Position numbers and translations under genes: made by a program. Positions 1-27,865 of a stretch of DNA of 64,000 nt are shown here, piece by piece. A model generated the notes under the pieces. That model saw nothing but the letters and a program-made list of their open reading frames with translations. It had not been told where the DNA came from and ran no database searches. The DNA lies in the NCBI GenBank assembly GCA_014871385.1, contig CM026428.1:1213088-1277087 (forward strand), given 5' to 3'. Source of the DNA: Ceratodon purpureus. Taxonomy: Eukaryota; Streptophyta; Bryopsida; Pseudoditrichales; Ditrichaceae. Numbering within the stretch: position 1 is the stretch's first letter; each line of letters begins with the position of its first letter.

Positions 1-1022
1 AGTTTGTTTTGCCGTAGTGAGTCTTTTTTTATAATCTTAAATTGTGTGGATCGGCGATGGAGTGCTGCGGTTGAGTTCATATTTGTAGCATTTGGGAAAG
101 TCTTGCGAGATGGGTGCATAGCCGGGAAACTATGTACTGGTCAGGTGCCGTTTTTTGTTTTTTCTTGACATAATTCTTTCTGATTTCGCATGTTGCCTCA
201 TGATTCGGGAGGAGAGATAATGATTTTCGCTTCATTTGGAGAAATGGACTGTTTCTTGTAATTATCAGATTCGTGAATTCCTAAGTCCCAAAATCAGCCA
301 ACGAGGTCTTTCATTCTTTGTATGCGGGATAGTTCTTTGTAAGCCGGATCTTTATTTTTTCACTTAAACAGATTCCACGGTCATTAAATGAAAATTGAGT
401 CCCCTGTTTTGATTTGTCCTTTGTTCCTACTTCAGATAATCTTTCCTATGCCTTGACCTTTCAGATTTTTCCTTTTGTGGCTTTTGCTTTGCGGTCCTTC
501 CTCTACAGATGCGACGGACGGATGGTCATTTGTGTGAAGGTTCTTTTCTTGCGTGATTCTGTCCTTTCTTCGAATTCTGTAATTGTTCCATTCTCGCTGG
601 AGGATGTCCTTAGTTCCTAGGTGAGATAAGCTCTGACTTGCACCCCGAAGTCGTTTGTTTCTTCCTTTCCTGATATTACTTTGCGGTCCTTGTCCAGACA
701 TGCGACAAATGGATGGTCATTTCAGTTTGTCGGGATTTTATGCACGATCGCATCCTTTCCTGAAGTTCTGCGGTTGTTCCGGATTTATTTTGATTATTCC
801 TTTTATTATGGTTCGGGAGATAAGGGATGCTCATAGTTTCCGCACAGTCCGGATTACCGTCTTTAATTTGAGTCTGTGATCTGACTCCGTTCTTATTATT
901 TAATCTGAGTCCGTTCCTGAAGCTTAATCTGAGTCCGTTCCTGAAGTTTAATCGGAGTCCGTTCCTGGAATGCGAGGTGAGTCCTTCTCTTTTCTGACTA
1001 CTGCTTTCCAGTCCTTGATTTG
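1..1022. other. Pyrimidine-rich non-coding leader or intron of the downstream transposase-like gene
   Basis: I see no convincing coding sequence here. From about 400 onwards the + strand is rich in degenerate TCCTTTCC/GTTCCTTT words. It contains an imperfect duplication (491-531 and 683-722, both running from GCGGTCCTT to GGATGGTCATTT) and three tandem copies of a 24-bp unit (901-972). The stretch ends in a polypyrimidine tract and a good 3' splice site (CCTTTCAG, AG at 1117-1118). I therefore read its last part as an intron or 5' leader of the gene that follows. The promoter and first exon cannot be placed. Confidence 0.4.
901..972 (+). repeat. Three tandem copies of a 24-bp unit
   Basis: Copies at 901-924, 925-948 and 949-972 share the core TAATCTGAGTCCGTTCCTG. 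The third copy has T to G and A to G differences. The repeat lies inside the pyrimidine-rich leader before the transposase-like gene. Similar short degenerate units fill the large intron of the RING gene at 10640-11165. Confidence 0.85.
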
Positions 1023-1132
1023 AGTTCCTTTCCTTTCCACAATTTCATTCCTTTCCTATTATTCTTTTTGTTCCTTTCCGGTTCTTGGTTTTAGTCCTTT
1101 CCTGTCTTTTCCTTTCAGAGCATGCTCAAATT
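1023..1132 (+). repeat. 110-bp direct repeat, copy 1 (intron end of the transposase-like gene)
   Basis: This segment recurs at 8022-8131 in the same orientation with a single visible difference (CCTGTCTT here, CCTATCTT there). Sequence on either side of the two copies is unrelated. It contains a polypyrimidine tract, the 3' splice site TTTCAG and the first 14 exon bases AGCATGCTCAAATT. The high identity points to a recent duplication. Confidence 0.9.
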
Positions 1133-3542
1133 ACACAACCGTTAAAGGGGATCCTAATCTATGGTTTGTGTGCTTTCTGTACGCAGCTGGATTTTTACAC
1201 GAGTTTTAAGGCCAACTACGGGCACTTGAAAGTATCTTTTGTCTCTTTCAGGAAGCTGCGACCCTTCTACATAAGGCGACTCCGCGACTTTAACTCATGC
1301 TGCTGCCGCTATCATCAAGAGATGGAGGAAATCATGATGGGATTTAACAATATGCGAGCAGGGAAATTCCACCTTGGCGTAGGGGTGGACACCTGCACCT
1401 GTTGGTGCCAAGACCTGTGCTGTAGGGCAAGAGACGGAGGGCCACTGACCGGGGTTGTTGCATGCCAGAGTAAATTACACACCTACAAGCGTGCAAGCCA
1501 CCTCTGGGAGCAGTGCCTGTGCCCACGTGAGTTCGGGTCGGAGTTTTTCAATGTGAGGTGCGTGAAGGGAGAGTGCCCAGACTGTGGCTTTAAACTGGTT
1601 CCCTTGTGTGAGAGAGAAGTGGATCCTACAAACGACGCATTGTTGGATTGGAGGAGATTTGAGATGGTAGAAGCCGGGAAGACTAAAGCTGGCGATCCCA
1701 AGAAGGTCTTGCGGCTGGAGTATAAACGAACCACTGCAAAGGTGTTCGTCGACTTTGCCAAGACAAAAATCCCCCCTTTCATTCGGCACCAACATACAGC
1801 GCGCTGGCAGGATTCACAATACCGAGCGTGCATCGAAGGGCTTCAGCCTGGAGAGATCATGAGCTTGATCGACTATGCGGAGAATTACTCCTTCAAGGGA
1901 CAGAATGAGGTACAATCACAGCATTGGTATAATTTCCAATTGACGATTCTGGTACACATCACCTACTCTGTGAACCCAGACTATGATGTCACTGATCCAA
2001 AATCCAAGAAGAGGCTTACGGAGTACTACTATTACATTTCTGATGATCCAAAGCACGACAGTCTGTTTGTGCAATATTGCCTCGGTTTACATTGGAAGAT
2101 GCTCTGTTCAGCGGGTACAGCACCGAGTCGACACATCGTTTGGTCCGACGGCTGTGCCGCTCAGTTCAAGGGCGCAACTGCCTTCTTCTACGTGTCGAGG
2201 TATTTTTTTCATTTGTGATTAATTTAGGAGGCCAGTCAAAAGTTTTCTTGCTTTGAATTTCCTTGGTGATGTATAGCTTGTATATGTAGCTCGAGTGCTA
2301 TTCGGTCTGTGAGTTAATTACACCTTGGTGTTATAATAAGTCGTTGTAATTGAATATTTGCACCTGGAGGGGGGGCTGGGAAAACATAGGCGGTGACGTA
2401 CCATACGGTGTCTGTGGATTGATGCTGCCTCTTCTGCATGGAGTAACTGATTATTTTAATTGGTGGCATTTTCCAGGTACCCCTCAATCACCGCTACTGA
2501 TGTGAACTCCGCCGGATGCCAAATGGATTGGCATTATTGGGGAAGCGGTCACGGGAAAGGTCCCTACGATGGGGCTGGGGCGTGTTTGAAATCCGGTCTA
2601 AGAAAGGAGCAGCTACGAGTTAACAGCACGCGGCTTCACAACACAGAGGACGTTGTCCAGTTCTTGAGATCTTCGATGAATCAACCGCATGCTGCGTACG
2701 CGGGAGCACGGAGAGATGTGAAGCGAAATTTTGTGCTCGTAGGCAAGACAGAAGTGTGTCGAAAAGTTTCAATGGGGTGTAGGACGGTGAGCGGTAGCCG
2801 CAACTTTTATTCGGTAAGGAGTGTATCAGCATCTAACAATGTTCTCCTTGAAATGAAGGAATACTCTTGTTTTTGCACTTTATGCGTATCAAGGACAAAC
2901 AGTGGGAACACCTGCCCGAACAGAGCTTACTCCGGTCCTTGGGTGTTGAAAACGTTGGAGCCACTGAGACCAGAAGAAGCAGTTCAGGAAGAAGAGGATC
3001 CTGATGTGGTTTGGCCAACTGAACTAGACAACAACGACCTAGCTTCTGAGTTGAATGTCGGTGACCATTTTGCGGTTCATGCAGACCCACTAGATCCGCA
3101 TGGTGGTGGCGCTAAATTTTTCGTTCTGTTATGTACGAAGAAGATGTACCTTGTGGAGGAGAATGGCGCAACTGATTCTTGGGGTGGAGTCTTCGATAAG
3201 GATGACGAGGTAGTTGAAGGCTTGTATTATCATCAGCAGGGGACAAGTCGAAGCTCGTACCACTTTAATGGCGCTGCTGGTAGTGCCCGCATATATTCCC
3301 ATTTGGTTCTGGCAACTAAATTCAGCATGAAGTTGCTTCCACACAGACGGAAAGGCTCCACGTCGCTGTATCAACTCAGCTCCACAACTCTTGCTAAGAT
3401 TGATGCAGCAGTCGAGAGCAGAGAAGAGCGTGAGGAAATTGGGGCCTCCGAATGTGCATCCGATGATTCCGCAGATGACTTGGAGTGTGTCGACTCTGGG
3501 GCCGAAGACAGTTCTGATGATGAAAGCGATCCAGAAAATTAA
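1119..3542 (+). CDS. Transposase-like protein with SDG...QFK and HGKG motifs (5' end uncertain)
   Basis: Two long exons join in frame: up to 2199 and 2477-3542, with intron 2200-2476 (AG|GTATTT ... TTCCAG|G) splitting an Arg codon. The upstream boundary is unclear; acceptors at 1118 and 1251 are both plausible and no initiator ATG is visible. The product has an N-terminal Cys/His-rich part (LRPFY, then CCCRYH and CTCWCQDLCC), a block IDYAENYSF, then SDGCAAQFKG and SGHGKGPYDGAGA. The Asp residues in these three blocks are good candidates for an RNase H-fold DDD/E triad. A Cys cluster (CFCTLC ... C) and a region GDHFAVHADP...IYSHLVLATKF follow, ending in an acidic tail. I recall similar uncharacterised multicopy proteins in bryophytes and a related motif order in animals. 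Assignment as a transposase or domesticated derivative is inference. Confidence 0.7.
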
Positions 3543-9135: not shown

Positions 9136-12100
9136 TTACATATCTCTAAACTTCGCGGGTACAATCTGCCGAACAGAAGCATTTCGCGACACCCTCAGAC
9201 CGTTGGCAAGACTTTCTGAACTCTGCTTCTTCACCACGGTGCGCGGACGCCCCACCTTCTTCTTTGGCGGCTCTTCCTCGCTTGGCAACCCTAAAATCTC
9301 GTTCATTGTCCGCTTCACAATCCGAGTGTGGTTCATGTTGTCGTCCTCACCCTTCTTTCCCGTCGGCTTCTTCTTCACTGCCGTACTAGGTTCGTCTTCT
9401 AGGAGAGTCTCTGTGGCCAACTGTTTTGTGGACAACAGTTTCCTCGATGTGGCAGCACTGTTTGCTAATCCACCGTCCTCTGTCGACAACAAAACCTGTG
9501 CTGCCTCTCCCTTTTCCGGAAATTCAATTGATACAGAACGTACACCACCTTGAGAAAAAAGTTCATCGTCACAGTAATGGACTAACCCGGCATTGCGGTT
9601 GTCCTCTTCGTCAGAGTAATCCTCGCCCTCATCAATTCCTGCACGATCCTCCAAGGTCAACGCCGTCACCACTGTGCCCTTGCACCCAGCTCCTTCAGAC
9701 TGAGATGTGCGAGACTCGGTAACTACTCTATCTACCACTCCCATCTTTTCTGCCAGAAGCTGAACTGATCTTCTTGTATTCCGGGTCGCTTCCCATCCTA
9801 CAATCTTTTCGTCGCAGATTGGGCAAATGGTCAATCCACTCACACAACCGAAACAAAACCTGTCGTGACCGCATGCCTGCATCACCAAGAACTCAACGTC
9901 AATTCATGGGATTACAAACTTCAACATTGACAATGATTTGAACATGAAAATAATACATAAAGAGCATTTGGGACAAAACAGTGCAGGTGAAGTCACTGAC
10001 CTTGAGCTTGCAAGCGGCCGGCTTTGTCTTGCACGATTGGCAAGTAGACACCTCGGCAATCTCCTGTCTCGACGGTTCTTCATTGCAACTTGCCGTGGGC
10101 ACATTTGTCTCGCTCGCTTGTGAACCAAGTGGAATTCTCTCCCCTTCTTCGCAGCTTGAAACCACGCCCCACTCTGCGACCACGATTTTAAATTTGTTAA
10201 TTGAAATACATTGACCTACGAAGAATCCAATGTCACAAATGCTAATCTGATCGAAGCCGATAACTCCTTGACACTTAGGACTCTTAAAACTCATTTCCCA
10301 CCCTAAACGCATGCTGCTGAACAGAATACCCTAAACCCCTGATACAGCTCTCTACCAGTTCATCACCAAACAAATAACTTCTACAATGGCAAAGCAGGTC
10401 TGCTAACGGTAACTATCCGTGAGCCAATTCCTGACTTTGGTGTCCTATAATATCTATTGCACACAAATACGGTATTCATTATTTCCACATCACAGCTACC
10501 TCAAAAACCTTAATCTAACACACATCTGCGATTTATTTAAAACATTTGTAAGAACTTGCAATCTGCTACACACACGAAAAGTGATCAGCACATGTTCAAG
10601 CAAAGATCCGAAATAATCAGACGATGTGCATAATATCCTGAACTCCTGAAATCCAGACCTCCAGACGTCATGAATTCTATACATCCGGCAATCCTGAATT
10701 CTAGAAGCACCGGACATTCTGATTTCCAATAATCCAGACGTCCTGAATCCAGGACTCCGGACATCCTTCAGGACTGATGAGAATTCCAAAAATCCGGACA
10801 GTCATCCGGACCTAAATCCTTTTCTAATCCTACGTACTTCCGGACATCCGGAAAGAGCCGAATTCTATAATTCATGTTACCCTAAACCATAATTCCTGCG
10901 ACATTCTCCGGAATGGCACAAACTTCACAAAGGACAATGAACAAAGGAACAAGAACTTGACATGAATGTAAAGGAACCAAACATGAACAATGGAACAAGC
11001 ATGAACTCTGGAACTGAATATCAAGGAAGGACATGAAGAAAGGAACCAAATATCAGGACATGAACAAAGGAACCAAACATAAGGAACGTCAGAATATCAA
11101 AGATACGCCAGAATGTCAAAGAAACACCGGAATATCAAAGAAAGGGCAGAATATGAAGGAACGCCGGATCAATGTAACGTACCTTTCCTTTTGTCTCCAG
11201 CGGCTGGAAAGGAGTGAGAAGCCGTCATCACCTCTTTCTTCACACTGATAACCGAGTTCTTCGATGGCATTCTAATCCCGAGAGCAGCTTCGTGCCGTCT
11301 CTGAAAAAGCTTCCCACAGTCGGGTAGCAAACACTTGGTGCCGACCTTCGCGTGCTCAGCGAGACACCAAGGATGATATACGTGTCCGCAACTAATCGGT
11401 ACATAGTCCCAGCATGAATACCAAAGATGACAAACAGGACAAGCATTCAAATTATGAACTAAATGTATCGGAGATAGAGGACACTCAGCGATGGGCATGG
11501 GCCAAAAACTATTGCCAAATCCTTCCCGCATCGTTCGTAGTTGCTCTTCCATTCCGCATGCTTGCTTCTGTAAGGCCTCCACCTTCTCATTCAACTTGCT
11601 GTGTTCTTCACAGGTGGCCTCTAGCTCCTCCTCCAAGCGGCTTATCGTCACTTCGCAGTCTGTGACAATCTGCTGCGACCTTCTACTACTCTTCATTTCG
11701 TCGACTCTAGAAACAGACAGAGCGTCGCACTTTCCCTCATCAACCGAGTTCTGTGCCAGCAGGGTATCTTTCTCCACTGGAGAAGAGTTTCCCGACCCTA
11801 AGGACTCTAAAAGAATCAACGTCTCCTCCATCCGAGCTCGTATCGAGAGCTCTTCAGCATCTATTCTCTCGATCTCAATCTTGCTTTCAGCTATCATAAC
11901 TGTTCGGTCCTCTCGCATGAGTTTTGCTCTTCTGAGACAGTCTTCTTTCTCCCCCCTAACCTTCGTGACCTGAGCCAACGAAACCCTAAATCTCCCAAGC
12001 AACTCCTCACGATCGGTAATGACTCGAAGCATGTCGTCAATGTCATACTGGGTCCAACCAGGTGATACATTCGATAAGTTCTTTTTCCCGCCACACCTCT

Positions 12101-21903: not shown

Positions 21904-22397
21904 TAATGCCGTCCAACTTCAGTGATCGGGTAATGACCGCTTGTCGTGTAAATGTAGCTCACATCCTATTGTTGGTGTTAAGAATGAATTCTCTATCCTA
22001 GGCGGTTAGATTGGTCGCGTTGATTTTCCTCATGTCGGAGCGTCGCTTTGTATTTCCACTTTACCTGGCAGTGAAGGGGGTAACAGCAGCAAGGGGGTTC
22101 AACACAAGCGGTGAGTCAACAACAGACGGGTTTACAGCAGTCTGGCATCTATTCTCAGGCGACAGGAACGCAACCGGGGAGCTCGAGTGAAGTGGCGAGT
22201 CCTTCTGGCCCAAGTACACAAGCGTCGACTCCACCGCATGTGCCGGATTCCCAAATCTCGCCAGCGGGGACCGCGCATGTCTCTGGTGCGGCATCGGCTG
22301 TTCCAGTGCAGGCTCAATCTCTGCAACAGCAGCAACAGCAATTTCAGCAGCATTAGGAAAATATAATTCATCTCACATCACTGAAGTTGGACGGCAT
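21904..22397. repeat. Segment bounded by a 23-bp inverted repeat, possible small DNA element
   Basis: TAATGCCGTCCAAC... at 21904-21926 is the perfect reverse complement of the sequence ending ...GTTGGACGGCAT at 22377-22397. The match extends by two more bases (TA) if the Copia insertion is removed (27871-27872). The arms enclose about 450 bp that include a Gln-rich frame. The Copia element sits inside the right arm. No flanking target duplication for the small element is obvious. Confidence 0.6.
22111..22356 (+). pseudogene. Gln/Ser-rich ORF, probable C-terminal exon fragment
   Basis: An 81-residue frame is rich in Gln, Ser, Pro and Thr and ends in a Gln tract followed by QFQQH and a stop. 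It resembles the disordered activation tail of a plant transcription factor, but has no DNA-binding domain. The start at 22111 is a GTG, so it is more likely the end of an exon than a complete gene. It lies between the arms of the 23-bp inverted repeat. Confidence 0.3.
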
Positions 22398-22645
22398 TGT
22401 TGAAATACACTCTGCCACTTAACTCCTTGTTCCTTACGGCAACTCCTAGTTCTCTCTGGATGACCTCAGTTCTCCTTTTCATCCATCCAAACGACTTGAC
22501 ATTCACGAACTAGGAACCACTCTCACACTGACACGTTGCTCATTGTTACTGGGCAGTCACTTGTATATATGAGTGCTCTTTGAGTACTACAATCAGATCA
22601 ATAGAATACAGTTTCTCTTTTGCATTATGGAAATCATGTTCAACA
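22398..22645 (+). repeat. 5' LTR of the Copia element
   Basis: 248 bp, TGTTGA...TCAACA, identical by eye to 27618-27865. It contains TATATATGAG (about 22563-22572), a likely core promoter, about 80 bases before the LTR end. Confidence 0.95.
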
Positions 22646-22657
22646 TGGTATCAGAGC
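22646..22657 (+). promoter_or_regulatory. Primer binding site
   Basis: TGGTATCAGAGC directly follows the CA end of the 5' LTR and matches the usual plant Copia primer site complementary to initiator tRNA-Met. Confidence 0.9.
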
Positions 22658-22932
22658 GAATCGTCATTTAGCACAGTATGTCTAGGTAATTGTTGCAAGT
22701 CTAGTGAGCTATGCTCCTATCCCTGTCTATGAATATCTGAGTATATGTTTTTTCTGTTACTACAGTGAGCCATGCTCCTGCAACTACAGTAATGTCCAGA
22801 GAGAGTCTCCGAAAGTTATAGTACGCAGAAGGTATATGTGAAACGTCTGAGAGTAAGTCCAGATTCTCTGAGTGAGCTGTGCTCCTCGTTCCCTACAACA
22901 ATAGAATTACAGACTACAAGAGAGTTAGAATC

Positions 22933-25900
22933 ATGTCGGATGGTCACGGAAACATGTCTGTTGGTGAAAGTAGCAAGCTTGTAGGAATTAGCAATTATTA
23001 TACCTGGCAGCTTAAGATGAAAGCTATTCTCCGAAGGGAGAACGTTTGGGAATTGACAGAGAATCATGTGACTCCTGCCATATTCCCAGCCATAGTCCTA
23101 GGTACACAATACACGGAAAATACCATGAGGAAGGCGAAGAATCTTGCCTTGTCCGGGATTCAATTATCTGTAGCTGACTGCTTGCTAGGATTTGTCGCCA
23201 ACTTTACCGACCCCGCACTCGCCTGGGAAGCGCTCCGCTTGAAGTACTCATCTGGGAATCAGTCCCACAAGCTGCTGCTCTCCAACCAGCTCCACGCCAT
23301 GAAGATGCCGGAAGGAGGATCGATGGAAGACTATGTCAATAGAGCAACTGACATCAAAAACAAGTTGTTAGCGATTGGTGACAGCACGAGTGATCAAACT
23401 ATTTGTCAGTTACTACTTAACGGACTGCCAAGAAGTTATGAAGGTGTTGTTCAGACCTTAAGCAACCTTGACGTTGTCCTCTCCTTCGATCAACTCACGA
23501 CTCGGCTTCTCACCGAAGCAGCACGTCAAGAACAGCGCACATCTCAGCTAGGAGACGAACAAGCACTGGCGGCTTATTTCCAGAATACCCGCATCTCCCC
23601 AGCTCCATCAGACACAACACAAGGTCAGTACACAAATCCAAGTTACAACCGTTTCAGAGGCTTTCAACGTAGAGGTACTCTTGGTAGATCAGGTAGAGGC
23701 CGAGGTTTCACTCGACCACTCATCATTTGCTACCAATGTGGTAAGCCTGGTCACATTGCGAGAGATTGTTATTCTTCTCAGCCACAAGTTTCACGAGGTC
23801 TCCCACACCGATCTGCTTATGCAAATGCGGTGGAAAACCTCGAGGTAGCTCTAGCCCAGTTTCAGGACATAAATCAGAGTAGCCCATGGTACATGGACAG
23901 TGGTGCATCTACCCACGTCACAGGCACAAGAGGAAATTTGACACAAGTTACGGAGTCTAGCTCAGGGCGAGGGATCAGGGCAGCCGGAGGGGAGAGTCAC
24001 GCCATTCGTGGCATAGGCAATGCATCTGTAAACACAGATTCCGGTGAAATAAATATGACCAATGTTCTCTATGTGCCAAGCCTCAAGAAATCTTTGATAT
24101 CCGTAGGTGCCATTGCAGACACAGGATGCATTGTTGTTTTCTCCGCAGACCAATGCCTTATACTTGATAGCGAATCCCAGCAGAAGCTTATTGCCTCAGG
24201 TTACAGGGATCCAGTAAATGGTCTGTACAGACTATCGCAGTCACCGCAAGTAAACAGCGTAGAGGATATTGGAAAGCTTTGGCATCGGAGGTATGGTCAC
24301 CTTAGTCCAACAGGACTTAAACACTTGATAGAGCATAACAGGGTGATTGGCATTCCACAACTGAGTTACACGGCATCAGTATGTGAAAATTGTCTTGCAG
24401 GAAAACAACACCGAGAAAGATTTCCCAAACACTCGACACATAGAGCAGAAGGACCGGCTGATTTAATTCATTCTGATTTAGTGGGACCTCTCCCTGTCCA
24501 GTCCTTAGGTGGCTCGAGATACATAGCTGCCTTTACAGATGACTTTTCTCGAAAGTCATGGACTTATTTTCTCAAAAGCAAGGCAGAAACATTCAGAAAA
24601 TTTCAGATCTTTCAGAAACTTATTGAATCTGAGACTGGCAGAAAAATAAGGACCCTCCGCACAGATCGCGGCGGTGAATTTCTATCTACGGAGTTTACAC
24701 TCCACTGTCAAGATCATGGGATCTCCAGGCAACTGACACAGGCACTCACACCGCAACAAAACGGTGTTGCGGAGCGGCGAAATAGGACTATAATTGAACG
24801 AGCCAGATCACTGGCTGTGGAAGCGCACTTACCGGGATTTCTATGGAGTGAAGCGGTGGCGACAGCAAATTATCTGGTCAACAGGAGTCCCACCGTCGCC
24901 AACAAAGGAATTACACCTGAAGAAAAATACTCAGGTAAATTACCTCAAGTCCATCATTTACGGATTTTTGGATGTATGGCATATCTTCACATTCCCAAAG
25001 AATCTCGCAAGAAATTAGACTCGAAGACTAGAAAATGCATGTTCCTAGGCTACGACGAACAGAGCAAAACCTATAGACTCTATGATCCAGTGACAAAGAA
25101 AATTACCTTGAGTAGAGATGTCGTCTTTGACGAATCCAGAGTAGGTTACCATTATCTGTTTGATCACTCAACCGCTCAGGAGGAGCTGTTTCCGGCCTTT
25201 CCTGATCAACTGGTTCAGCCTGAACCAGAACATCACATTCCGGAACCCCCAGTACCCGCACCCATCGAAGCTTCACCCCCTGGATCCCCGCAACCCATAG
25301 AACCCCAGATAGTTCCCAACCAGGCTCTTCCACAACCTGATAACCCCGCTCAACCCCTTCCAGAACGTAGATATCCAGTCAGAGCTCGTGTACCGTCACA
25401 GAAGCTTCGTGACCATTGGACGTTGGCTACGGAATTACGAGAAGAACCTTCCAGCTATGCTCATGCAGTTCAAGATGTGCGGTGGCAAGAGGCCATGCAA
25501 CAGGAAATTGATTCCATTGCCAAGAATCACACTTGGGATATTGTAGACAGACCTTCGGATAAGGTACCAATTACAGCCAAATGGATTTACAAAATTAAAA
25601 AAGGGCCCCAAGGGGAGATAGAGAAGCTTAAAGCTCGTATTGTAGCTCGTGGTTTTCAGCAAACCGAGGGGATCGATTATTTCGACACTTTTGCTCCAGT
25701 AGTAAGATTCTCCACAGTTAGAGCCGTTCTCTCAATTGCAGCCCAGCGCAAGTGGCGCATCCGTCAGATGGACGTCAAGACTGCGTTTTTAAATGGAAAA
25801 CTGGAGGAACAGGTCTTCATGGAGATCCCCGAAGGTTTCCCATATGCAGGAGACTTCACAAAGGTCTGCAAATTAAATCGTGCTCTCTATGGCCTTAAAC

Positions 25901-26979
25901 AAGCACCGAAAGCATGGTACTCGAAAATAGACTCCTGGTTACTTAAGCATGGGATGGTTAGAAGCAGCGCAGATCCGAATATGTACTTTAGAAAGAAAAA
26001 CGGGAAAACAACAGTTATCCTACTCTATGTCGACGACTTATTACTCACAGGGGATGATGAAGCTGGGATAAAAGAGATTCAACAATCTCTCACTCAAAAC
26101 TTTGAAATGACTGACTTAGGCACCGCTAAGCTATACCTCGGTATCGAGTTCGCATATTTCCCATCAGGAATCTATCTCCACCAGCGGGCTTACATCAGGA
26201 AGTTACTCCAGCGATACCAAATGGAAACTTGTGTACCAAGTCGCATTCCCATGGAACCTGGCATTATTCTTCAAAAAGCATCAAACTCTCCAAAGGTTGA
26301 CCCGGAACTGTACAGATCTCTAGTTGGAAGCCTCATCTATGTTACCAACACTAGGCCAGATATTAGTTATGCTGTTAGTTCCGTAAGCAGATATATGAGC
26401 TCCCCTGAAGAGAGTCATCTTCAAGCAGCCAAGCAGATTCTACGCTATCTGAAAGGAACTATTGACTTTGCTCTTCAACTGTCAAGCAAGAGCAATGAAA
26501 AACTAGTTACCTTTGCCGATGCCGATTGGGGGAGGGATTTAGATACCCGTAGGTCCACCTCCGGAATCATATACAAATTAGGGGATACGACTGTCCACTG
26601 GAGCAGCAAACTGCAAGATGTTGTCTCATTATCCACAACAGAGGCAGAATACCGAGTGCTCTCAGAGGCCACTGCAGGTATCTTGCATCTCCAAAAGATA
26701 TTTAGTGACCTCGAAGTGAGTGCCTTAACACCCACTCCATTGTTTAGTGATAATACTTCGTGTATCCGATTAGTGGACAATCCCATCCTCCATGAGAAAA
26801 CGAAACATATAGATCTTAGGGCTCACTTTATACGAGAGAAAGCCCAAACGGGCGAAATTGATGTACAGTATGTGCACACCGCAGCACAACAGGCCGATAT
26901 ACTAACCAAACCCCAGCCGGCAACCAAGTTTGCCCTAAATAGAGCTGAGCTTGGGGTACAGCCACTACCCTTAGGATAA
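22933..26979 (+). CDS. Copia gag-pol polyprotein, 1348 aa, intact
   Basis: I start at the ATG at 22933 (MSDGHGNMS); the frame is open upstream but without an ATG. Domains in order: a UBN2-type gag (YYTWQLKMKAIL near residue 20), a CCHC zinc knuckle (CYQCGKPGHIARDC, from 266), an aspartic protease (MDSGAST, Asp 322), GAG-pre-integrase (LWHRRYGHL), and an integrase with Asp 515, Asp 578 and Glu 614, giving exactly D-x62-D-x35-E. A Pro-rich linker follows, then reverse transcriptase (YVDDLLLTGDD from 1032) and RNase H (ADADWG near 1196, then ILTKP at the end). The order protease-integrase-RT-RNase H defines Copia. No stop or frameshift interrupts it. The leader 22646-22932 repeats the phrase GTGAGCYRTGCTCC three times. 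Confidence 0.97.
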   Translation: MSDGHGNMSVGESSKLVGISNYYTWQLKMKAILRRENVWELTENHVTPAIFPAIVLGTQYTENTMRKAKNLALSGIQLSVADCLLGFVANFTDPALAWEALRLKYSSGNQSHKLLLSNQLHAMKMPEGGSMEDYVNRATDIKNKLLAIGDSTSDQTICQLLLNGLPRSYEGVVQTLSNLDVVLSFDQLTTRLLTEAARQEQRTSQLGDEQALAAYFQNTRISPAPSDTTQGQYTNPSYNRFRGFQRRGTLGRSGRGRGFTRPLIICYQCGKPGHIARDCYSSQPQVSRGLPHRSAYANAVENLEVALAQFQDINQSSPWYMDSGASTHVTGTRGNLTQVTESSSGRGIRAAGGESHAIRGIGNASVNTDSGEINMTNVLYVPSLKKSLISVGAIADTGCIVVFSADQCLILDSESQQKLIASGYRDPVNGLYRLSQSPQVNSVEDIGKLWHRRYGHLSPTGLKHLIEHNRVIGIPQLSYTASVCENCLAGKQHRERFPKHSTHRAEGPADLIHSDLVGPLPVQSLGGSRYIAAFTDDFSRKSWTYFLKSKAETFRKFQIFQKLIESETGRKIRTLRTDRGGEFLSTEFTLHCQDHGISRQLTQALTPQQNGVAERRNRTIIERARSLAVEAHLPGFLWSEAVATANYLVNRSPTVANKGITPEEKYSGKLPQVHHLRIFGCMAYLHIPKESRKKLDSKTRKCMFLGYDEQSKTYRLYDPVTKKITLSRDVVFDESRVGYHYLFDHSTAQEELFPAFPDQLVQPEPEHHIPEPPVPAPIEASPPGSPQPIEPQIVPNQALPQPDNPAQPLPERRYPVRARVPSQKLRDHWTLATELREEPSSYAHAVQDVRWQEAMQQEIDSIAKNHTWDIVDRPSDKVPITAKWIYKIKKGPQGEIEKLKARIVARGFQQTEGIDYFDTFAPVVRFSTVRAVLSIAAQRKWRIRQMDVKTAFLNGKLEEQVFMEIPEGFPYAGDFTKVCKLNRALYGLKQAPKAWYSKIDSWLLKHGMVRSSADPNMYFRKKNGKTTVILLYVDDLLLTGDDEAGIKEIQQSLTQNFEMTDLGTAKLYLGIEFAYFPSGIYLHQRAYIRKLLQRYQMETCVPSRIPMEPGIILQKASNSPKVDPELYRSLVGSLIYVTNTRPDISYAVSSVSRYMSSPEESHLQAAKQILRYLKGTIDFALQLSSKSNEKLVTFADADWGRDLDTRRSTSGIIYKLGDTTVHWSSKLQDVVSLSTTEAEYRVLSEATAGILHLQKIFSDLEVSALTPTPLFSDNTSCIRLVDNPILHEKTKHIDLRAHFIREKAQTGEIDVQYVHTAAQQADILTKPQPATKFALNRAELGVQPLPLG

Positions 26980-27458
26980 ACCCAAGTATGCTTCTGCCTC
27001 CCTTTGACACCAGAAACCCCGAAACTGAGCACCCTTAAAACCCCTGACTTCCTGCTCACATTCACTCCAAGAACCATACAGCCCTGGGTGATAACCTCTC
27101 CTCACAGCGTACACCTTACCCTTACTGCTCTCAGGAAGACCCTTTCTCTCCTCTACAGCCTCTACTCTTCTCCTAATCTCACTATCCTCCCTCTTCCCTC
27201 CGAAGATACTATCCCCAAGACGACGCAACAGAACCCACATGAGCCACAGCACCAGCAATAGACCCTCCACCTGCATCAACGTACGAGCAATTAGCCTGGG
27301 CAAAGAAACTTCCTACAAATAACCCAGTATGACAATAACCCTTCAAATCCTCATCAGAAACTCACCGCAGGCGCTTTGCTGATGTGCTCTTCCAGCCTCG
27401 CTCGGATATCTCGCTCATCTCGAGTGTTGATACGCAATCGTCGTCTCTCCTCCATCAT
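26971..27458 (-). CDS. Antisense spliced gene in Copia 3' region: RNase H1 N-terminal (viroplasmin/hybrid-binding) domain protein, 130 aa
   Basis: On the strand opposite to pol, exon 1 (27458-27366, starting ATGATGGAGGAG) joins exon 2 (27270-26971) across a 95-bp intron with GTGAGT donor and GATGCAG acceptor, both phase 0. The exon 1 product is highly charged (EERRRLRINTRDERDIRARL). Exon 2 begins with a hydrophobic run (LLLVLWLMWVLL) and basic residues. It ends with YAVRRGYHPGLY, SWSEC, VRGFKGAQF and EAEAYL. This last part matches position by position the RNase H1 N-terminal domain, which binds RNA/DNA hybrids or dsRNA and also occurs in caulimovirus viroplasmin. The stop overlaps the pol stop by nine bases. 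If splicing is not used, an ATG at 27276 would give a 101-residue product with the same domain. A role in binding cDNA-RNA hybrids is inference. Confidence 0.75.
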
Positions 27459-27608
27459 CGACACTCTCAACACTCTCCACCAGCGTTCGACTTCTTGCCT
27501 CGCATCATCACTTCATCTCCGCCCTCTACACCAGCGTTCCAGTTCAAGTCACGCACCACAATTCAAGAAACTTGCTTCCTACAAAACGATTGTGTTCCGG
27601 CAGAGTGC

Positions 27609-27617
27609 ATGGGGGGG
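27609..27617 (+). promoter_or_regulatory. Polypurine tract of the Copia element
   Basis: ATGGGGGGG directly precedes the TG of the 3' LTR, where plus-strand priming is expected. Confidence 0.7.
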
Positions 27618-27865
27618 TGTTGAAATACACTCTGCCACTTAACTCCTTGTTCCTTACGGCAACTCCTAGTTCTCTCTGGATGACCTCAGTTCTCCTTTTC
27701 ATCCATCCAAACGACTTGACATTCACGAACTAGGAACCACTCTCACACTGACACGTTGCTCATTGTTACTGGGCAGTCACTTGTATATATGAGTGCTCTT
27801 TGAGTACTACAATCAGATCAATAGAATACAGTTTCTCTTTTGCATTATGGAAATCATGTTCAACA
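27618..27865 (+). repeat. 3' LTR of the Copia element
   Basis: 248 bp, identical by eye to the 5' LTR; followed by the target duplication GGCAT. Confidence 0.95.

Follow-up and report, generated by a model that had tools for sequence, protein, structure and literature searches.

What is a gene with a domain of RNase H1 doing on the opposite strand of a retrotransposon? The question is raised by a 64,000-nucleotide stretch of the genome of the moss Ceratodon purpureus (assembly GCA_014871385.1, contig CM026428.1, positions 1,213,088 to 1,277,087), here called the window, which holds a Copia element at positions 22398-27865. Between the pol gene and the 3' long terminal repeat (LTR) of this element, antisense to its coding sequence, sits a two-exon frame whose product ends in the hybrid-binding domain of RNase H1. 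This antisense frame is a real, selected, and widespread accessory gene of moss Copia elements, and it probably helps the elements to survive in their host, because natural selection keeps it intact. Its features in the window are as follows, with omega denoting the ratio of nonsynonymous to synonymous substitution rates (dN/dS).

27465..27558, minus strand: leader or promoter side of the antisense gene; an imperfect tandem duplication of 51 bp (repeat D2, 74%) lies shortly before its start codon
27366..27458, minus strand: exon 1, 31 codons from the ATG, charged; five elements keep its frame and a length of 31-32 codons, under weak constraint
27271..27365, minus strand: predicted intron, 95 bp, GTGAGT...ATGCAG, with four in-frame stops; splice sites conserved in five elements
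26971..27270, minus strand: exon 2, which encodes the hydrophobic helix, the linker, and the hybrid-binding domain and includes the stop; open frame, omega 0.11-0.41 in nine pairs with dS of at least 0.79
27196..27267, minus strand: hydrophobic helix with a conserved tryptophan, probable membrane anchor; modeled helix, residues 2-25 of exon 2, tryptophan in 21/22 aligned proteins
26986..27117, minus strand: RNase H1 N-terminal (hybrid-binding) domain, PF01693 (Cauli_VI); Pfam match and modeled fold

An earlier note, made from the sequence alone, had predicted this gene, and its coordinates, including the bounds of the 95-bp intron, proved exact: the two exons join into a frame of 130 residues without an internal stop, and the antisense coding sequence overlaps that of pol by the nine bases that the note had given (26971-26979). 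We hold this anatomy to be close to certain. The assignment of the product to the RNase H1-N/viroplasmin type was borne out as well. Pfam matches PF01693 to residues 83-126 with an E value of 4.3e-15 and 56.1 bits against a cut-off of 21, and the modeled product has the beta-beta-alpha-beta-alpha fold of the hybrid-binding domain, matching the human domain (Protein Data Bank [PDB] entry 3bsu) with a root mean square deviation of 1.5 Å over 49 residues. No catalytic RNase H family was found by Pfam in the 130-residue product, which ends just after the hybrid-binding domain, and a full RNase H1 enzyme was rejected for that reason. A true viroplasmin (TAV) was also rejected, the product having 130 residues and PF01693 as its sole family above cut-off.

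Relatives of the product share a common architecture of a short N terminus, a hydrophobic, tryptophan-bearing helix, a fast-evolving linker, and a C-terminal duplex-binding domain. The short hydrophobic segment pointed out in the earlier note turns out to be a conserved part of the protein: the ratio of nonsynonymous to synonymous differences per site (pN/pS), summed over 8 chosen pairs, is 0.30 in the helix compared to 1.05 in the linker, and 0.20 in the domain. To judge from the model, the protein is probably membrane anchored through this helix. A 17-residue hydrophobic stretch (mean hydropathy of at least 1.6) precedes the domain in 25/47 Copia frames, in 7/7 non-Copia frames (3-kb loci), and in 19/22 other long-enough frames; in several Copia frames the exon begins too late to include it. 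We also aligned 22 hand-chosen proteins from Copia loci and from the CACTA-side and third-group loci described below. Residues corresponding to human Y29 and W43 are present in all 22, and the equivalent of K59 is lysine or arginine in all 22; W43 and K59 are residues that we take to contact the duplex in the human domain. The equivalent of human K60 is serine in 16 proteins, glycine in 4, arginine in 1, and alanine in 1. Y29 and K60 are duplex-contact residues of the human domain (PMC7657459).

The gene is not the oddity of a single element that it seemed when the earlier note set it apart from standard Copia elements. A family search (best 150 of 261 candidates) and a protein search (best 150 of 244 candidates) of the C. 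purpureus assembly gave at least 193 distinct places with the domain, 43 of them picked by eye from the protein search and the row for the window's own exon 1 being dropped; the places may include ordinary host genes. Surroundings were examined for 186 of the 193, and 147 of these places lie antisense to the end of a Copia pol gene and none lie in sense. Seen from the side of pol, two queries from its C terminus, each with 147 scored places, together yielded 204 distinct places with a Copia pol, and 94 of these have a domain within 1 kb downstream, at a median of 81 bp and antisense in 94 of 94 cases, compared to the roughly 0.1 expected from a uniform spread. No domains were found within 1 kb upstream of the pol places, which is a weak control, that region being mostly inside pol. 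For 80 of the 99 remaining domain places, surroundings of 1 kb were read; the best match to a Copia pol within about 550 bp lies on the opposite strand in 50 of them and on the same strand in none. Among twelve further places in 3-kb loci, three are antisense to Copia (L003, L007, and L031, the last by a 33-residue piece only) and nine are not. The pol genes of the carriers have identities to the window pol down to 36% over about 180 of 260 residues (first pol list).

A chance frame or a one-off host capture was rejected in view of the many diverged relatives under selection. Of the 193 domain places, 110 are on C6 (110.5 Mb, about 30% of the assembly), presumably a sex chromosome rich in transposable elements; the UV sex chromosomes of C. 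purpureus account for some 30% of each genome (PMC13120521). Full-length relatives in the databases from outside Ceratodon are mostly RNase H-domain proteins, and the few named ones are bacterial (first search, best 120 of 618). P0001, P0002, P0004, and P0122, which are near-identical or related proteins from short contigs in ENA/Logan, indicate that the gene exists in other samples.

Sequence comparison of the carriers indicates that the antisense frame is under purifying selection. Omega of exon 2 was calculated for 13 pairs among eleven loci of the clade of the window element, with L020, whose domain is broken, left out. Nine pairs have a dS of at least 0.79; eight of these, among L009, L010, L012, L013, L014, and L016, gave omega values of 0.11-0.29, and the ninth (L014-L019) gave 0.41. 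The other four pairs gave 1.91 (L010-L011, with one synonymous change), 0.27 (L012-L013), 0.45 (L014-L015), and 0.54 (L017-L018). In the two shifted frames the first 10 pairs gave 0.53-3.7; for the seven high-dS pairs among them the range is 0.66-2.8. The same calculation was made for five further groups, from which pairs with dS outside 0.1-2 were dropped, leaving 61 of 79 possible pairs. The median omega is 0.31 for Copia elements without an intron in the frame (26 pairs), 0.46 for the L001 type (5 pairs), and 0.27 and 0.29 for two CACTA-side groups (7 and 5 pairs); the fifth is the third group, taken up below. Single pairs range from 0.15 to 0.76, and the shifted-frame medians from 0.66 to 1.73. 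Two outcomes that the earlier note had named as refuting it, a missing PF01693 match and random stops with dN/dS near 1 in relatives, were not what we observed. The frame is kept in relatives, although not in every copy: decayed copies have stops in exon 2 (L011, L013, L016, and L018) or a broken domain (L020).

Across 24 Copia loci, the distances among the domains correlate with those among the pol genes (Mantel r of 0.65, with 0 of 5000 permutations as high), and the gene is, by these sequence comparisons, old relative to the divergence of the Copia pol genes. Four loci read over 6-7 kb show the surroundings more fully. The gene is antisense between pol and the 3' LTR in L131 (LTRs of 239 nt, 100% identical, flank TCAAA, pol frame of 1360 residues), in L133 (LTRs of 193 nt, 98%, flank ATTTG, coding in adjoining frames of 255 and 1167 residues), and in L134 (140-nt LTR repeat, 100%, pol frame of 1436 residues). 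In L132 it is antisense to a pol gene broken into several frames, and no LTR pair was found in the stretch read. The ATG of the gene in L134 is 76 nt from the edge of the LTR, so that its antisense promoter probably lies within the LTR or farther out.

From the conserved splice sites we infer that the antisense gene is spliced. Five elements of the window clade have an exon 1 of 31-32 codons, splice sites of the form GT(G/A)AGT and GCAG, and introns of 90-113 bp with 2-4 in-frame stops; the intron identity is 0.49-0.60 in four pairs. L134 has a predicted intron of 224 bp at a different position, which joins the helix exon to the domain exon in frame, and in other families, L072 and L089 among them, the frame runs from the ATG through helix and domain with no intron. 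Because the genomic RNA carries an antisense intron in reverse, splicing does not remove it, and it is kept through retrotransposition.

The gene might instead be real but unspliced, with translation from an ATG in the last bases of the presumed intron giving a protein of 101 residues, but we think this unlikely. The window does hold this shorter start (product MQVEGLLL...), and the database protein P0001 begins at the same place; in addition, exon 1 is weakly constrained (pN/pS of 0.43-0.87 on 21-23 synonymous sites, seven pairs) and is not recognizable in L010. However, L014 and L016, read by eye, show no in-frame ATG between exon 2 and the upstream stop, the GT..AG sites and the exon 1 of 31-32 codons recur in five elements, and the different intron of L134 also joins anchor and domain in frame.

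The gene is not confined to the neighborhood of Copia. Thirty-nine of the examined places are without Copia, and seven have direct CACTA-side neighbors. L042 (around L005) has the gene upstream of, and on the same strand as, matches to Transposase_21 (E value of 4.3e-64) and DUF4218 (8.7e-23), along with a DUF4216 match (6.1e-5) that is below cut-off. L039 (around L002) has a divergent frame 49% identical to the L042 transposase over 92 residues; a second frame is shared by L039, L040, L041, and L130 at 66-74%; and the near-copies L021 and L024 have Transposase_21 matches about 4.2-4.3 kb away in divergent orientation. The homologous gene, with helix and domain, is present in the CACTA-side loci L039, L040, L041, L042, and L130. 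A search for inverted repeats of at least 60 bases in four 8-kb loci found one local pair only, in L042. Some DNA transposons of the CACTA class apparently carry the gene too, in that it lies beside transposase genes. Eight unassigned loci extended by about 2 kb downstream revealed no Copia; a match to a CACTA-side frame was seen in L130 (beside L069) alone. L127 and L128 (beside L093 and L070) have a frame in common that the other CACTA-side loci do not share.

Four of the eight extended loci (L123, L124, L125, and L129) fall into a third group. This group has a Copia-like copy of the gene and neither Copia nor CACTA neighbors within reach in these four loci, and its domain nests among the Copia domains (support of 95, quick tree). 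In L123, L124, and L129, pieces of a downstream open reading frame (ORF) on the other strand resemble methyltransferases when read by eye; a tested piece, from L123, matches no Pfam model, and its PDB matches are unrelated repeat proteins. The quick tree was made from 82 of 107 frames (nine without the motif, frames of <60 residues, and frames without a full domain were dropped) and gave long-branch warnings. Its CACTA labels are based on neighbors for L002, L005, L008, L021, L024, L027, and L069 and on a weak frame match for L038; the remaining CACTA labels come from resemblance, which makes the clustering partly circular. The carrier labels on the 82 rows need 6 changes, compared to a shuffled mean of 26, and the starred branches force at least 3 for Copia. 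This pattern, from a quick tree with partly circular labels, suggests exchange of the gene between element classes.

How such a protein would help its carriers is a matter for more tentative argument. It is quite possible, and no firmer than that, that the protein is tethered to a membrane, binds duplexes, and shields the RNA of the element from silencing. A promoter within the 3' LTR or adjoining it would drive leftward transcription of the antisense gene, whose placement would give it a promoter of its own. The helix would anchor the protein in a membrane, and the domain would bind duplex nucleic acid of the element, either double-stranded RNA (dsRNA) or RNA/DNA hybrid, arising where the sense genomic RNA meets the antisense mRNA. 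Shielding of this duplex from Dicer and related host factors would then let the element escape silencing. CACTA elements move without reverse transcription, and a function shared with them should therefore not depend on it. Since a retrotransposon has retained the domain and its probable anchor, and a DNA transposon seems to have done so too, the need that they serve should be common to both, and escape from silencing is the best candidate. A domain of this kind in the TAV of cauliflower mosaic virus (CaMV) binds hybrids and dsRNA in vitro (PMC5902531), and plant transposon-encoded anti-silencing proteins do exist, namely VANC (PMC5735166). We regard as rather doubtful a wider version, in which a counter-defence module has moved between unrelated moss mobile elements (Copia, CACTA, and the third repeat), lies antisense in Copia for the sake of its own promoter and intron, and protects the duplex RNA produced by its own antisense expression, as a built-in antidote to self-made dsRNA.

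Several observations weigh against the protein acting as a shield. No domain copy was detected within 1 kb of 110 of the 204 Copia pol places; carriage therefore appears patchy across lineages, and Copia can live without the gene. Constraint is weaker in the third group, with a median omega of 0.55 (18 pairs, range of 0.39-0.76). The equivalent of K60 is serine or glycine in 20 of the 22 aligned proteins, and affinity may be low for that reason. The strictly apolar core of the window helix is about 14 residues long, and the membrane anchor is a prediction. The like domain of CaMV TAV is dispensable for suppression of RNA interference and serves TOR binding (PMC5902531). Human and fly RNase H1 bind RNA/DNA hybrid more tightly than dsRNA, the dsRNA binding of the fly enzyme being about ten times weaker, although the yeast domain is reversed, with dsRNA bound more tightly than hybrid (PMC7657459).

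An improbable alternative, which we did not adopt in its pure form but keep as a rival, is that the protein is a helper of reverse transcription, supplying in trans the hybrid-binding domain that is absent from the Copia RNase H, keeping the RNA/DNA hybrid tethered within the particle or close to it, and making RNase H more processive. The fold is indeed that of the RNase H1 hybrid-binding domain, 147 of the 186 examined copies are in Copia, and the domain distances follow the pol distances. However, relatives adjoin CACTA transposase genes, where there is no reverse transcription, and the 110 pol places without a detected copy speak in the same direction; of the roles put forward in the earlier note, one in reverse transcription only has thus become less likely.

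A modulator of translation or TOR appears quite unlikely. Such a protein would make TAV-like contacts at the TOR/ribosome machinery and raise translation of element RNA or block autophagy. We know of no counterpart of the membrane anchor in TAV, and PF01693 is the sole family above cut-off in the product, with no other part of TAV seen. In its favor, the TOR-binding domain of TAV contains an RNase H-like motif (PMC5902531). We consider it very unlikely that the protein acts as a nuclear tether or a reader of R-loops, sitting in the nuclear envelope, binding R-loops, and placing elements in favorable chromatin or guiding integration; the hybrid-binding fold and the helix would suit this, and antisense proteins of other retrotransposons include nuclear ones (PMC7264820). 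That the RNA matters and not the protein, with the antisense transcript regulating gag-pol and the frame a passive captured host fragment, is scarcely credible: retrotransposon antisense transcripts can act as RNA (PMC7264820), but five groups show purifying selection on amino acids (omega medians of 0.27-0.55 compared to 0.66-1.73 in shifted frames), two of them CACTA-side, where the gene is not antisense to Copia pol, and the pol overlap of nine bases only argues against a low omega arising from the overlapping gene.

The element that carries the gene in the window has the features expected of Ty1/Copia, namely LTRs, a target duplication, gag, and integrase before reverse transcriptase.

22393..22397, no strand: target-site duplication GGCAT, left copy, from the sequence
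22398..22645, plus strand: 5' LTR (TG...CA), 248 nt; forms direct repeat D1 with the 3' LTR, at 100% identity
22646..22657, plus strand: primer-binding site TGGTATCAGAGC, from the sequence
22933..26979, plus strand: gag-pol open frame, intact, 1348 amino acids; Pfam Retrotran_gag_2, zf-CCHC, Pol_BBD, gag_pre-integrs, rve, SH3_retrovirus, RVT_2
27611..27617, plus strand: polypurine tract (G7), from the sequence adjoining the 3' LTR
27618..27865, plus strand: 3' LTR, 248 nt, direct repeat; possible source of the antisense promoter, by comparison with L134
27866..27870, no strand: target-site duplication GGCAT, right copy, from the sequence

The primer-binding site at 22646..22657 is presumably that of the initiator Met tRNA. 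The earlier note had called the carrier young, in agreement with its 248-nt LTRs, 100% identical, and the GGCAT on both flanks. An LTR search of the 362-Mb assembly found the two full window LTRs, one 118-nt piece at 93% (on C6), and two weaker pieces; despite the identical LTRs, this search revealed no second full copy of the element family in the assembly. The insertion of the element appears to be recent. Elsewhere in the window, two long plus-strand frames at 1019-3542 are transposon-like by eye with no Pfam match, and a minus-strand frame at 9136-9903 has a weak RING-finger match below the family cut-off.

Antisense accessory ORFs have long been known, with roles unknown and mostly without recognizable domains; the moss gene is one with a recognized duplex-binding domain. 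In the open-licence full texts searched, we found no paper on a PF01693-type gene in Copia or CACTA or on an antisense ORF with such a domain. An expression study of Physcomitrium patens discarded assemblies antisense to transposable elements (PMC7466625), and such transcripts could therefore have been passed over in it. The function of the moss gene is directly testable, because its domain has a known structure and ligand, its selection can be measured, and it has relatives beside a second class of element. A duplex-shielding role would show that plant mobile elements other than viruses also make repeated use of duplex nucleic acid binding.

Among known systems, a similar arrangement is that of the antisense aORF-3R of plant LTR retrotransposons, found in maize Grande (gene23), rice RIRE2, Silene Retand, and bean PvRetro13 (PMC7264820). 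These also lie antisense between pol and the 3' LTR, as the moss gene does in the window, L131, L133, and L134; they are conserved in many copies, their role is unknown, and Grande gene23 is transcribed from its own promoter (PMC7264820). According to that review, their proteins have no clear database similarity except for an SMC domain in PvRetro13 and a transposase-28 domain in Retand (PMC7264820). The moss gene is unlike them in its recognized duplex-binding domain and helix, its place in Copia, its moss host, and its relatives beside CACTA transposases.

In sequence and modeled fold the domain is like the hybrid-binding domain of eukaryotic RNase H1 (PDB entries 3bsu and 1qhk). The moss product differs in having no RNase H catalytic domain, with a helix and linker instead. 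The TAV of caulimoviruses is encoded as a sense-strand gene. TAV/P6 viroplasmin likewise brings the small domain into a plant retroelement, but it is a multifunctional protein of 520 residues (PMC5902531, PMC3836500), and by Pfam the small domain is the sole part found to be shared. The capE gene of Pleurotus ostreatus Helitrons is another PF01693 gene in a mobile element, with no copies outside it according to that study (PMC4289320). It differs in belonging to a fungus and a Helitron and in being described as a captured gene, and a helix, selection, and an antisense arrangement are unstated in the parts of the paper available (PMC4289320). VANC of the Arabidopsis VANDAL transposons is the likeness by role, an accessory transposon protein that counters silencing, as we suppose for the moss gene; the VANC proteins are sequence-specific anti-silencing proteins, and we claim no kinship with them in sequence (PMC5735166, PMC10398659).

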